From Stieleria varia (GTDB taxonomy: Bacteria > Planctomycetota > Planctomycetia > Pirellulales > Pirellulaceae), in assembly GCF_038443385.1 (NCBI RefSeq), contig NZ_CP151726.1, positions 8,246,001 through 8,310,000 on the forward strand: 64,000 nt of DNA, in the 5' to 3' direction. The notes under the pieces were generated by a model, which saw only the letters and a list, made by a program, of their open reading frames with translations, had not been told where the DNA came from and ran no database searches. The position numbers were made by a program, and so were the translations under genes. Each line of letters opens with the position of its first letter. Position 1 is the stretch's first letter. Of the stretch, positions 54,841 to 60,408 are shown one piece after another.

Positions 54841-55434
54841 ATGACTGACGTTCAACCCGCCGAATCGACTTCCACCAACCTGCTGGAGCGGTTGATCGTA
54901 CGAGACTCCCAGGCATGGGGTCGGTTCGCGGCGATCTACACGCCGCTGGTGTTTCGCTGGGCCAAAGGAAGCGGGCTGCAGTCGGCGGATGTCGCGGATG
55001 TCACTCAAGACGTTTTTCGCGTGGTTGCGACCAAGTTGCAATCTTTTGAGCGGACCACATCCAAACAGGGATCGTTCCGCAGATGGCTATGGGGAATCAC
55101 GCGAAACATCCTGCGTCAACACTTTGATGCCAACTCCAAGACCGCGCAAGGCACCGGCGGTACGACAGCCCACCGATTGATCACTGCTGTCCCCGACTAC
55201 CTGGAATCCGACGAACCGCCACACGATGCAGATGCGGAAAAGAGCTTGGTTCATCGAGCCCTCAAAGCGATCGAAGGTGACTTTCAGCCGCACACCTGGA
55301 AAGCCTTTTGGCGAATGACGGTTGAACAGCAATCCGCCAACGAAATTGCGGATTCCTTGGGAATGACTCCTCGGGCAGTGCGACAAGCCAAGTATCGAGT
55401 GTTGAGCCGCTTGCGTGAAGAATTACTACAGTGA
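54841..55434 (+). CDS. ECF RNA polymerase sigma factor
   Basis: A 197-residue sigma-70 of the extracytoplasmic-function type. Region 2 spans about 15-90 (LVFRWAKGSGLQSADVADVTQDVFRVV, FRRWLWGITRN) and region 4 about 135-195 (TVEQQSANEIADSLGMTPRAVRQAKYRVLSRLREEL). Between them is an acidic linker. Its stop codon overlaps the GTG start of a Ser/Thr kinase. In Planctomycetes such sigma factors are often controlled by the neighbouring Hanks-type kinase rather than by a classical anti-sigma factor, and no anti-sigma gene is visible here. Confidence 0.92.
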   Translation: MTDVQPAESTSTNLLERLIVRDSQAWGRFAAIYTPLVFRWAKGSGLQSADVADVTQDVFRVVATKLQSFERTTSKQGSFRRWLWGITRNILRQHFDANSKTAQGTGGTTAHRLITAVPDYLESDEPPHDADAEKSLVHRALKAIEGDFQPHTWKAFWRMTVEQQSANEIADSLGMTPRAVRQAKYRVLSRLREELLQ

Positions 55435-58400
55435 TTTCACCGGACGATCCTATCGAACCGCCAGACCGCACGGACGATGAATTCGATTTCACCGCGTTGG
55501 ACGAACTTGATGCGATCGCTGCATACATAGGACACGATAAACCGAAACCGAATTCCCACACGGATGAGTTGGACGAGTTGATTCAGCGTGTCAAAGACAT
55601 CGCTCACGAAGCACAGTTTCCGGTCGCAGCGGATTTGCATCAGCCAGTGTCGCCACCATTGTTGATCAATGAATACGAGCTATTGGGGAAACTTGGCTGC
55701 GGAGGGATGGGGACGGTATTCAAAGCACGACACTGCCGCCTAGATCGGTTCGTCGCGCTGAAAATCCTGTCATCACATCGCTTTCATCGTGCGGATTCCG
55801 TGAATCGTTTTCGGAATGAAGTGCGTGCAGCCGGCAGGCTCAACCATCCGAACATTGTCGCCGCACTCGACGCGGGCGAATACGACGGCTTTTGTTACTT
55901 GGCGATGGAGTTGGTGGAGGGAGCTGATCTGTCGGCCATCGTAAGACATCACGGACCACTGCCTCAGAGCGATGCGTGTGAGATCATACGCCAAGCCGCC
56001 ACTGGTTTAAGTGAATCGTATGCTCAAGACATCGTGCACCGTGACATCAAGCCATCCAATCTGATGCTGACACGTGACCGAACCGGCGAGCCGATCATCA
56101 AGATCCTGGACATGGGACTAGCTCTGATGATCGATGCGGTTGCGGAAGGAGAACAACTGACGGCGACCGGACAATTGATGGGAACCGTGGACTTCATGGC
56201 CCCTGAACAGTGCGATGACAGCCACGGGGTCGACATTCGAGCAGACATCTACGCGCTCGGAGCCACATTGCACTGTCTGCTGACAGGCGTGCCTCCACAC
56301 AATCATCCATCACAGGATTCGATGGTTAAGCGATTGCTTACCATCACCAGCAAACCCGCACCATTGGTCAGTGAGTTGCGAACGGATCTATCGGATGACT
56401 TGGTCGAACTCGTTGCCCAACTGCTGAGCAATGATCCGGACAATCGTCCTGCGACTCCCGGCGAAGTGATCCGCAGGATTCAGCCGCTGTGCAACGGACA
56501 CCAGTTGCAGGCACTCCTTGCCGCTTTGCCCGACGTCGAACTGGAACCGCTGGAGAAAGCTGATCGGGCGCTGACGCACTGGGCCAGTGAGACGATCAAC
56601 TCTCAACCCTCTCACCAATTTCTAACTTCGTCAGGTTCATCAAAAGAAATTTCACACAATACGGAGCCTGTAGAAACATCGGCCGGTTCGGCGACGATAG
56701 GCCAGCCAGAACGCAGCACTCGCCGGAGTTGGAAATCGGTCGCCATTTCACTCTTCGTACTCGGCGTGTCGCTGACGGCCGCGGGTTGGTGGCAAAACAT
56801 CAACACACCTGAACGAGAGCCTGCCAGCCCATCGCCAGGATCGCACCGTGCGTCCACTGAAGAGAGCACAGCAGGCAGTTCACTTGACAGCACCGCATCG
56901 CCAAAGCTAACCCCACAGCCGCGTTCGGCGTTTGACGCACCGGCGGGCTTGGTGGCCTACTGGCCGCTGGATGACTCCCACGAAAACGCGTTCCGGGATC
57001 GTTCCGGAAATGGGCTTGATGGCGTCCCTACCGTCCCCTCAAGCGAATTGAGCGGCAGTTCAGCGCCAATGATTGGCACCCGACTGTCTGCCCAGCTTCG
57101 ATCGCCAGCACCTCTGGCCCTGATTCCGCATCACGCTTCCTTTGATACCGAAGAACTCACCGTCTCCTTTTGGCTCAAGACCCCAAGGGCCAAACTGACC
57201 GAAAACATCAAGTTGATTCAAAAGCGAAGTGAGTCAGCGGGATTTGCCATTTCGCTGTTGTCAACGGATTCATCTCAAGCAGGCAGAGTGATCGTCAATC
57301 TGTTCAGCGATGATCAGCATATCCCTGCGATTCGCTCCCGCCGCATGATTGCCGACGGCTCGTGGCACCACCTCGCCTTCACATTATCCCCATCCCAATC
57401 AAGCATTTTTGTGGATGGCGTGATCGACACGACGGCGGACACCCCGCACGCCATTCTTAGCAATTCGGATCAAATGATTGTCGGCTCCATCAACGGCACC
57501 ACGACGAAAGGCATGATCGATGAGATCTGCATTTTTTCTCGTGCGATGGGAGTCGAAGAAATCCGCGGATTGAGCCAGTGGCGAACCTCACCCCTGCCGC
57601 TGCTGGCCCCTCAATCAGCAGCACAAACCCGCAAGATCCAGACCGCATGGAGCCATCACTGCAACCTGCCGCAGGAATACGTCAATTCCCTGGGGATGAA
57701 ACTACGTCTTATTCCACCCGGTGAATTTGGAATGGGATCAACACAAGACGAGATCGATGAACTGGCGTCGTGGGACAAACGTGAAACGAAACGAGACGAT
57801 TACCAAGCCGAAGCGCCACTGCATCGCGTACGGATCAGTCAGCCATTCTATCTCGGCACCATGGAAGTCACTCGAGGTCAGTATCAAGCGGTCACCGGCA
57901 AGCGTCCTTCGCACCACGCCAACAACGATCCGTCATCAAACAATTTCGATCCCGAATCGATGCCAATCGAAAGTGTCAGCTGGTTCGACGCAGCCGCTTT
58001 CTGCAATGCACTCAGCCAAGCGGAAGGGCTCTCGCCGAGCTACGAAATCCGTGAAGAGGTGGTCTGGCCGATACCGAATAGCACCGGGTATCGACTGCCC
58101 ACCGAAGCACAGTGGGAGTACTGCTGTCGCGCGGGAACAGAAACGCCCTGGTCGCACCCGGTCGATGAATTCGAGCAATTCGATTGGTCGATCTCTGCCA
58201 CCAAACGCCCCCAACCCACTGGAAGCTTGAAACCCAATCCGTTCGGATTGTACGACATGCACGGCAACGTGTTTGAGTGGTGCCAAGACTGGTACGCCGC
58301 TGACTATTACGCCGAACTTGATGCGAACGTCACACTGGACCCGCAAGGACCGCCGACGGGCACACGCCGTGTTTATCGAGGCGGCAGTTACTGGCAACGT

Positions 58401-58523
58401 CGGACCATTTCCCGCAGCGCCTGTCGAGGAAATCACTTCCCAGCATTCACCCACAAAGAACACGGCATGCGAGTGCTGTTGCCGGTTTCCGCTCAAATCG
58501 CGCCCCTTGTCGATCATCAATAA
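55431..58523 (+). CDS. Ser/Thr protein kinase with LamG and FGE-like domains
   Basis: 1030 residues. The N-terminal kinase (about 78-345) has GCGGMGTVF, Lys in VALKIL, HRDIKPSN and the metal loop as DMG instead of DFG (KILDMGLAL). Linker and one membrane helix near 435-455 (VAISLFVLGVSLTAAGWW). A LamG-like sandwich spans about 505-715 (GLVAYWPLDDSHENAF, SWHHLAFTL). The C-terminal SUMF1/FGE-like domain is about 740-1025 (GEFGMGSTQDEIDEL, LPTEAQWEYCCRAG, GNVFEWCQDW, RGGSYW). It lacks the cysteine pair of real formylglycine-generating enzyme near its end, so it is a binding domain. A cytoplasmic kinase fused to an extracytoplasmic sensor. Overlaps the ECF sigma gene by four bases (GTGA). Confidence 0.92.
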   Translation: MISPDDPIEPPDRTDDEFDFTALDELDAIAAYIGHDKPKPNSHTDELDELIQRVKDIAHEAQFPVAADLHQPVSPPLLINEYELLGKLGCGGMGTVFKARHCRLDRFVALKILSSHRFHRADSVNRFRNEVRAAGRLNHPNIVAALDAGEYDGFCYLAMELVEGADLSAIVRHHGPLPQSDACEIIRQAATGLSESYAQDIVHRDIKPSNLMLTRDRTGEPIIKILDMGLALMIDAVAEGEQLTATGQLMGTVDFMAPEQCDDSHGVDIRADIYALGATLHCLLTGVPPHNHPSQDSMVKRLLTITSKPAPLVSELRTDLSDDLVELVAQLLSNDPDNRPATPGEVIRRIQPLCNGHQLQALLAALPDVELEPLEKADRALTHWASETINSQPSHQFLTSSGSSKEISHNTEPVETSAGSATIGQPERSTRRSWKSVAISLFVLGVSLTAAGWWQNINTPEREPASPSPGSHRASTEESTAGSSLDSTASPKLTPQPRSAFDAPAGLVAYWPLDDSHENAFRDRSGNGLDGVPTVPSSELSGSSAPMIGTRLSAQLRSPAPLALIPHHASFDTEELTVSFWLKTPRAKLTENIKLIQKRSESAGFAISLLSTDSSQAGRVIVNLFSDDQHIPAIRSRRMIADGSWHHLAFTLSPSQSSIFVDGVIDTTADTPHAILSNSDQMIVGSINGTTTKGMIDEICIFSRAMGVEEIRGLSQWRTSPLPLLAPQSAAQTRKIQTAWSHHCNLPQEYVNSLGMKLRLIPPGEFGMGSTQDEIDELASWDKRETKRDDYQAEAPLHRVRISQPFYLGTMEVTRGQYQAVTGKRPSHHANNDPSSNNFDPESMPIESVSWFDAAAFCNALSQAEGLSPSYEIREEVVWPIPNSTGYRLPTEAQWEYCCRAGTETPWSHPVDEFEQFDWSISATKRPQPTGSLKPNPFGLYDMHGNVFEWCQDWYAADYYAELDANVTLDPQGPPTGTRRVYRGGSYWQRRTISRSACRGNHFPAFTHKEHGMRVLLPVSAQIAPLVDHQ

Positions 58524-58660
58524 ACGTCGACTAAACTAAAAATCGTGAACCTTGCCAACACGAATCCACTCCTGATCGCAGCGGGGTAACCTGCGGGTGA
58601 TGTCCACCAGAGCAACATCACCCATTGACGATCTGCCCCCTATCTGCCTACGATGAAATC

Positions 58661-58732
58661 ATGACTTTCATTCTCGACATCCTACTACTCCTATTGCAAA
58701 ACGCCTCTGCGGCGGGAGATGAGGGTGTGTAG
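58661..58732 (+). CDS. leucine leader peptide (candidate leu attenuator)
   Basis: A 23-codon ORF, ATG 58661 to TAG 58730-58732, lying 101 bases before leuA. It encodes ILDILLLLL: five consecutive leucine codons (CTA CTA CTC CTA TTG) and six of 23 residues leucine, with CTA otherwise rare-looking in neighbouring genes. A terminator hairpin with T-run follows 38 bases later, before the leuA start. This is the arrangement of the enterobacterial leuL attenuator. The ribosome site is weak. No antiterminator was assigned by eye, although a GCGG at 58709 could compete for CCGC at 58736. Confidence 0.7.
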   Translation: MTFILDILLLLLQNASAAGDEGV

Positions 58733-58735
58733 AGA

Positions 58736-58750
58736 CCGCTAAAACAGCGG
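58736..58750 (+). promoter_or_regulatory. small hairpin between leader peptide and terminator
   Basis: CCGCT (58736-58740) pairs with AGCGG (58746-58750) around AAAAC. The CCGC could instead pair with GCGG at 58709-58712 inside the leader ORF, giving the mutually exclusive structures an attenuator needs. Confidence 0.5.
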
Positions 58751-58770
58751 ATTTGACCAAGACACAACAA

Positions 58771-58801
58771 ACCCGAGTCCCCGTGGACTCGGGTTTTTTT
58801 T
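58771..58801 (+). terminator. intrinsic terminator upstream of leuA
   Basis: A perfect 10-bp stem, ACCCGAGTCC with GGACTCGGGT, a 4-base loop (CCGT) and eight T residues (58794-58801). It is the best intrinsic terminator in the window. It lies between the Leu-rich leader ORF and the leuA ATG at 58834, where it would stop transcription when leucine is plentiful. It might instead simply terminate the upstream kinase transcript. Confidence 0.9.
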
Positions 58802-58833
58802 ATGCTTTTACTTCACCACCATTCACAGTTTTG

Positions 58834-60408
58834 ATGGCCATGCCGGAAACCGCCCCCGTCCCCAACGATTCCGTGACCGAAACACCTCCCCAGCCGACGC
58901 GACAAATCCGCATTTTTGACACCACGCTGCGCGACGGCGAACAATCGCCCGGTGCCAGCATGAACTTGGCCGAAAAGCTGGAGGTCGCACAGAGTCTCGC
59001 GGACTTGGGTGTGGACATCATCGAAGCCGGTTTCCCGATCGCTTCTCCGGGTGACTTTGAAGCCGTCCAGCAGATCGCTCGCACCATCAAAGGCTCAACC
59101 ATCTGTGGATTGGCCCGCTGCAACGACAAAGACATCGACGCGGCTGGTAAAGCCGTCGGGCCCGCAGAAAGCTCCCGCATCCACGTGTTCTTGGCCACCA
59201 GCGCCATCCATCGCGAGTTCAAACTCCGAATGACAACCGACGAAATCGTGCGGCGTGCCGTTGCCGGTGTTCAACGCGCGGTCTCCTTATGCGACGACGT
59301 CGAGTTTTCACCGGAAGACGCTTGTCGCACCGAACATGATTTTCTCTGCCGAGTCGTCGAAGCCGCGATCGATGCGGGGGCGACCACGATCAACGTCCCC
59401 GATACCGTGGGCTACGTCACGCCGGAGGAAGTTTTCAAGATCTTTGACATGCTCCGCAATCGCGTGCCCAATATCGACAAAGCCGTCTTGAGCACACACT
59501 GCCACGACGACTTGGGCATGGCCGTCGCCAACAGCTTGGCCGCTGTTGCCGCCGGGGCAGGGCAGATCGAATGCACGATCAACGGAATCGGCGAACGCGC
59601 GGGCAACGCGGCGTTGGAGGAAGTCGTGATGGCGATGAAAACTCGCAGCGACTTTTATCACTGCCAAACTCGCATCGATACCAAACGCTTGGTACCGATC
59701 AGCCGTTTGGTCAGTTCCACCACCGGCATCAATGTGCAACGCAATAAAGCCATCGTCGGCCGCAACGCGTTTGCGCACGAGTCCGGGATCCACCAAGACG
59801 GCATGCTGAAAGAACGCAGCACGTACGAGATCATGTCGCCAGAGGACGTCGGCGTTGCCAAGACCGATTTGGTGCTGGGAAAACACAGCGGACGCGCCGC
59901 CTTGGCCGACCGCGCCCAGTCGCTCGGCTACCACTTGGACGCCGAACAACTGCAAACCGTCTTTGACCAGTTCAAGATCTTGGCGGATAAGAAAAAAGAG
60001 ATCTACGACGGCGACATCATCGCATTGATCCGCCAAGAAATCCGCGCCGACACCGAACAGGGTTGGAAGCTGATCGATTACGTGGTCACCAGTGGCAAAA
60101 ACATCACTCCCGAAGTCCAAATGACGCTCCGCAAAGGAGACAATGAACAGTCCGTGAAAGTGGCCCAGGGCGATGGCCCCATCGACGCCGCATTTTGGGC
60201 CGTCGAAAAAATCACGGGCGTCGAAGTCGTCTGTAAAGATTTCCGAGTACATAGCGCCACGCTGGGACGCGACGCGATCGGCGAAGTCAATTTGGAAGTC
60301 GAGCACAAAGGCCAGCTGTATCGCGGAGTCGGCCTCAGCACGGATAGTGTCGAAAGCACCATCCTGGCCATGTTGAACGCGATCAACCAAATCGAGAATC
60401 GTTCGTAG
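58834..60408 (+). CDS. leuA: 2-isopropylmalate synthase
   Basis: 524 residues from ATG 58834; the frame upstream runs through the terminator and is not coding. It catalyses the first step of leucine synthesis, acetyl-CoA plus 2-oxoisovalerate to 2-isopropylmalate. The catalytic TIM barrel shows [28 protein letters not shown], the metal-binding [18 protein letters not shown] and [33 protein letters not shown] follows, and a C-terminal LeuA allosteric domain (about 395-520; [26 protein letters not shown]) binds leucine for feedback inhibition. No other leu gene follows. Confidence 0.97.

Follow-up and report, generated by a model that had tools for sequence, protein, structure and literature searches.

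The leader region upstream of leuA in the window (the whole 64,000-nucleotide stretch of DNA analyzed here) very probably constitutes a leucine-responsive, ribosome-mediated transcription attenuator. The features computed in favor of this proposal are a short leader ORF, its conservation across planctomycete leuA loci, a bias towards a rare leucine codon, an intrinsic terminator, an alternative fold, and the co-evolution of the two strands of that fold. The initial annotation of this DNA had likewise favored ribosome-mediated attenuation, and the antiterminator, its co-evolution with the terminator arm and the conserved leader all lend support to that reading.

All the elements lie on the + strand. 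The leader peptide ORF (58661..58732, defined by its translation) comprises 23 codons, encoding MTFILDILLLLLQNASAAGDEGV and then a stop, and contains five consecutive regulatory Leu codons, CTA CTA CTC CTA TTG (58682..58696), read directly from the sequence. It is followed by a small hairpin, CCGCU/AGCGG (58736..58750), which in the computed fold is enclosed by the antiterminator, and by an intrinsic terminator (58769..58801), which could be aligned in relatives. The presumed regulated gene at 58834..60408 has a second possible ATG at 58840, and is taken, as in the initial annotation, to be leuA, coding for 2-isopropylmalate synthase. The same succession of a 23-codon ORF with five Leu codons in a row, a small hairpin, a terminator and eight T before the leuA ATG had been laid out in the initial annotation and is borne out in each part, except that the terminator stem, described there as a perfect 10-bp helix, has 12 pairs (58769-58796) when A-T pairs are counted, with the T8 tract at 58794-58801. 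The RNA from 58661 to 58803 folds at -51.2 kcal/mol against -33.4 ± 3.5 for its shuffles (z -5.0; 0/200 as stable), and a scan of the + strand from 58400 to 58950 returned a single terminator-like site. Directly past the T run begins a further ORF of 10 codons, MLLLHHHSQF (58802-58834), whose TGA overlaps the leuA ATG by one base (TGATG); both chance and translation coupling are possible explanations for it, and the spacing at this position is longer in relatives from the genus.

A promoter scan identified a sigma-70-like promoter, TTGACG-18-TACGAT (58625..58654), with a predicted start at about 58661, the A of the leader ATG. As the -10 element ends 6 nt before this ATG, the transcript probably starts at the leader ATG itself. 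The same arrangement recurs in a hand-chosen clade, where for 25 of 26 loci the best promoter-like site ends 6 nt (18 loci) or 7 nt (7 loci) ahead of the leader ATG; the other 52 loci show no such spacing preference, and 24 of them have no promoter-like site by the rule applied. Judging by this spacing, the leader peptide of the hand-chosen clade is likely to be translated from a leaderless message. Another promoter-like site, TTGACA-18-AACAAT (58916-58945), lies within the leuA coding sequence and possibly occurs there by chance.

The layout of leader ORF and terminator exceeds chance. We applied a fixed rule that calls for an ATG ORF, 10-50 codons long and with 4 or more Leu within 7 codons, and a terminator within ~130 nt downstream: 75 of 105 planctomycete leuA upstream regions, drawn from two locus sets that are both biased to near relatives, satisfy it. 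Of 1020 dinucleotide shuffles, 10 from each of the 102 regions free of N, only 2 do so, and of the 90 regions lying before ilvB, trpE and hisG, none does. The two sets, i.e. 30 of 58 genomes with a match and the best 80 loci from a scan of named genome contigs, gave 110 leuA loci, of which five with identical upstream ends were dropped. The leader ORF, Leu run and terminator are kept in all 13 genus loci examined, the 14th genus genome (85% complete) being without a leuA match. A covariance model built from the window element itself (R1) finds one strong copy, located at the leuA element, in 13 of the 14 genus genomes and no strong copy in the remaining one (G008), its further rows including the palindrome matched on the opposite strand as well as low-scoring matches. 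The 30 of 105 loci that fail the rule include some with leaders visible by eye (L044, and L031 with a GTG start), and others in which inspection by eye revealed no leader plus terminator (L018, L034, L047-L049, L072, L073, L079 and L093). The latter are relatives of the window, and the absence of the element from them suggests losses. The loss in close relatives that the initial annotation had named as a refutation is partly borne out: the element is kept in the genus loci examined and missing from some loci outside the genus (e.g. L034, Rubripirellula obstinata, L018 and L047-L049).

In a set of 82 loci (83 chosen by hand plus L044, minus two near-identical ones), a stem and then a T run lie downstream of the leader in 78, and 4 have no terminator. 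In a phylum-wide sample, 47 of 118 genomes have a leuA match, and upstream regions were taken from 40 of these, L257 being represented by 235 bases only; those left out were the window, G031 (the same as L025), G052, G062, G107, G141 and G147. Of the sampled genomes from the window's class, 6 of 7 conform to the rule, and in the seventh the Leu-rich ORF begins with GTG, while 4 of 33 conform outside this class. Four further loci outside the class (L250, L253, L254 and L259) have a Leu-rich short ATG ORF before leuA with no terminator by the fixed rule. A distinct group of Gemmata- and Singulisphaera-type loci (L095, L097, L101, L104, L105 and L106) shows a different leader (e.g. MTVLPLLLDIRLLGPPRGRSSSRFDPK), an invariant CGGGGC before a hairpin beginning CGGCCCCGGA, and a weak T tract; this leader is possibly a variant with another output.

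No leader plus terminator was found upstream of ilvB, trpE and hisG in 30 loci each, taken from 40 genomes searched per family, with L152 and L186 contributing 573 and 500 nt of upstream sequence only. Rules for other amino acids, applied to the same control loci, gave two rows with matches, one a Ser-rich frame that begins with TTG and the other a Cys-rich frame that begins with GTG; for these rules the gene start is misplaced in L152, L186 and partly in L175, where the contigs end near the gene. The result for ilvB, trpE and hisG is a limited negative, as other genes may precede them in their operons.

The Leu codons of the leader show a rare-codon bias. Across 78 loci, CTA accounts for 156 of 579 leader Leu codons (27%), as against 51 of 2720 (1.9%) in the first ~1490 bases of leuA of the same loci; at the leuA rate, 17.7 CTA codons would be expected in the leaders. 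For the Salmonella leu leader, CUA has been described as the control codon, and its replacement by CUG as lowering sensitivity (PMC1183508).

In the initial annotation no convincing antiterminator had been discerned by eye, and folding for alternative structures was proposed; the computed folds now recover an antiterminator that competes with the terminator 5' arm. Its 5' strand, region 2 (58712..58730, GCGGG-A-GAU-GA-GGGUGUGU, ending in the blocks GGGU-GUGU), pairs with a 3' strand (58762..58784) made up of ACAC, ACCC and GUCCCCGU, which overlaps the terminator 5' arm, and the helix closes over the small hairpin. We folded 78 loci, without pseudoknots as in all folds reported here, starting immediately past the Leu run and ending with the terminator 5' arm and at most 4 loop bases, and compared each with 200 dinucleotide shuffles confined to the sequence 5' of the arm. 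The antiterminator ensemble energy of the window is -28.1 against -20.0 ± 2.7 for its shuffles, with 0/200 as low, and 52 of the 78 loci reach the best 5% of their shuffles by this energy (median z over all loci -2.46). The probability with which the terminator arm pairs upstream is a weaker support for the antiterminator than the energy: only 23 of the 78 loci reach the best 5% by this measure, and the window value of 0.74, against 0.53 for its shuffles, is matched by 10/200 of them. Only 42 of the 78 loci have an antiterminator that exceeds the lone terminator hairpin in stability. Without a ribosome, the leader codons of the window pair with region 2 in the computed fold, and in 58 of 67 loci the equivalent pairing has a probability that averages more than 0.5.

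The antiterminator strand co-evolves with the terminator arm. Column-wise covariation is weak in the close-clade alignment A1 because the block is almost invariant there, and a strand-swap test over distant loci was therefore used instead, on those 66 of the 78 loci in which both anchors were found. Cognate strands pair at -21.2 kcal/mol on average, as against -16.0 ± 0.39 for swapped strands, with 0/5,000 as low; for 39 representatives that are under 70% alike, the corresponding figures are -21.4 kcal/mol and -16.4 ± 0.50, with 0/20,000 permutations as low. These permutation counts do not equate to exact probabilities, related loci being non-independent, although thinning to the 39 representatives left the effect undiminished. 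The signal extends to the helix outside the conserved GGG/CCC (-10.8 versus -7.6 ± 0.37 swapped; 0/20,000).

The reading frame of this strand differs among relatives. Its conserved block GATGAGGG is framed as GAT GAG GG in the window, as ATG ARG G in most other members of the genus, and in the third frame as TGA GGG, with a stop codon, in L035, L038, L041, L046 and L090; being read in three frames across relatives, it is conserved as RNA and not as peptide. In many more distant relatives a UAG stop lies inside the same strand (e.g. GGCCGUAGGG). Counted on folds, the leader stop overlaps the arm-pairing strand in 46 of 67 loci, precedes it in 2 and follows it in 19; hence, a ribosome at the stop should cover the antiterminator strand directly in most loci. 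The distance from the strand to the stop that follows it is 4 nt in the window; for ten other genus loci it is 12-24 nt, and masking by a ribosome at the stop is accordingly less direct in the genus.

Together, the region presents a short leader ORF with codons for the end product, present in the sequence and predicted to be translated; an intrinsic terminator between this ORF and the gene, seen in the sequence and the computed stem; an antiterminator that excludes the terminator and is exposed on stalling, according to the computed folds and the co-evolution; and a region 2 that is masked, in the computed states, either by a ribosome that has reached the stop or because it is paired to the leader. 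From these we infer a transcription start, translation of the leader, stalling, a ribosome footprint and read-through under leucine limitation, which would be linked as follows. Transcription would start at or next to the leader ATG, and a ribosome would translate the nascent leader. If leucyl-tRNA is ample, the ribosome would pass the CUA-rich Leu run, reach the stop at 58730 and cover 58712-58730, upon which the terminator would form and leuA would remain untranscribed. If leucyl-tRNA is short, the ribosome would stall at 58682-58696, leaving 58712-58730 free to pair with 58762-58784; this pairing would sequester the terminator 5' arm and RNA polymerase would continue into leuA. In the event that no ribosome loads, region 2 would pair with the Leu-codon region and the terminator would be the default. 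The computed states of the window, for an assumed ribosome footprint of ~15 nt on either side, run parallel to this scheme: in the ribosome-free state region 2 is taken up by the leader and the terminator folds (-51.2 kcal/mol); with a ribosome in the Leu run and the terminator 3' arm yet unmade the antiterminator forms (-29.5 or -26.9 kcal/mol); and with a ribosome at the stop codon the terminator alone can form. After transcription of the complete terminator, the terminator state (-37.5 or -31.1 kcal/mol) is more stable than the antiterminator (~-27 to -30 kcal/mol) even with a stalled ribosome; thus, the switch must be kinetic, i.e. governed by the order of folding.

An alternative in which the same leader senses leucine and the control is translational or exerted via Rho, or the leader aids re-initiation at leuA, appears improbable for the window. 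It could draw on the 10-codon ORF that overlaps the leuA start, on the reported frequency of leader genes close to the next start in Planctomycetes (PMC4833913), and on the Gemmata-type relatives, where the hairpin is conserved and the T tract weak, and which translational or Rho-dependent control fits better. Against it stands the stem followed by a T run downstream of the leader, both in the window and in the 78 of 82 loci noted above. Moreover, the leader stop lies ~100 nt before leuA in the window and ~30 to ~600 nt before the LeuA match in relatives, distances that suit termination better than coupling.

Attenuation by transcription termination has also to be weighed against the possibility raised in the initial annotation that the terminator belongs to the gene upstream, with the Leu run being a product of chance. 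This long gene (55431-58523), which we take to be serine/threonine-kinase-like and which the initial annotation calls a kinase gene, is on the same strand as leuA and ends at 58523 with no other + strand terminator-like site in 58400-58950 to serve it. However, a promoter-like site and the leader ORF intervene between it and the terminator, and among 27 loci compared (over ~1 to 2.8 kb upstream of each leader) a kinase-like gene is found upstream in the window's own genome only, yet the element persists in the others. Furthermore, a terminator dedicated to this gene leaves the leader, the codon bias and the antiterminator co-evolution unexplained. We accordingly reject this alternative as very improbable. 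Several relatives in the genus share a different ORF at the position of the kinase-like gene. A T-box, riboswitch or other ligand-sensing RNA would account for the terminator/antiterminator pair but leaves the Leu ORF and the CTA bias unexplained, and merits hardly any credence: Rfam searches, permissive ones included, listed no T-box or riboswitch match in the window or in the relatives searched (10 at E<=1 and 12 at E<=10), and nothing but tRNA reached the gathering score in 10 loci.

Returning to the attenuator, its operation needs a ribosome on the nascent RNA, and its conservation therefore bears on the claimed separation of transcription and translation in planctomycetes, on which the 2014 work of Gottshall et al. 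is said to be the primary study. Such a spatial separation has been claimed for some planctomycetes (Gemmata) and is debated (PMC6212462, PMC6554331). Gemmata-type members themselves have a leader, which comes with a conserved hairpin and a putative antiterminator. On balance, we lean towards regarding the leuA attenuator as genetic evidence for coupling, at least at leuA, with ribosomes engaging nascent transcripts in the window's class. If this is true, the element would be a ready reporter of transcription-translation coupling in Planctomycetes. The separation question gains a simple single-gene test from it, and one clade adds a probably leaderless leader peptide.

The proposed mechanism is ordinary, textbook ribosome-mediated transcription attenuation, and is new for Planctomycetes as far as we could find. 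In 2010, it was stated that leader peptide systems had been demonstrated for Proteobacteria and Actinobacteria alone, with the ermC leader as an exception, and Firmicutes were then added (PMC2965389). Leader genes near gene starts have been reported in Planctomycetes, with leuA unnamed in the part of the source consulted (PMC4833913). Among the matches listed in the open-access literature, none described an attenuator for leucine or any other amino acid in Planctomycetes, and an earlier mention is possible. With respect to known families, the window scores 23.9 bits with Rfam RF00512 (Leu_leader), whose gathering score is 50, and we hence do not assign it to this family; Leu_leader is detected at E<=10 in 1 of 12 near relatives (21.0 bits), and Thr_leader in L213 at 25.3 bits versus a gathering score of 55.

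The closest likeness in layout is to the enterobacterial leu attenuator (RF00512), in which a leader with Leu codons, including CUA control codons, and an antiterminator/terminator pair likewise precede leuA; the system described here differs in that its message is probably leaderless and in that the stop falls within the antiterminator strand in 46 of 67 loci. In its predicted start, it resembles the trpL attenuator of Sinorhizobium meliloti, for which a transcript start at the leader ATG and a possible leaderless message are reported (PMC7298713); that system, however, responds to tryptophan and belongs to another phylum, and the start reported there is predicted here. Finally, as in the actinobacterial LEU element, leuA is preceded by a leader ORF that contains a run of Leu codons, but whereas the LEU element is described as a pseudoknot pairing the Leu run with the leuA Shine-Dalgarno box (PMC1262725), the planctomycete leader combines a terminator with an antiterminator.
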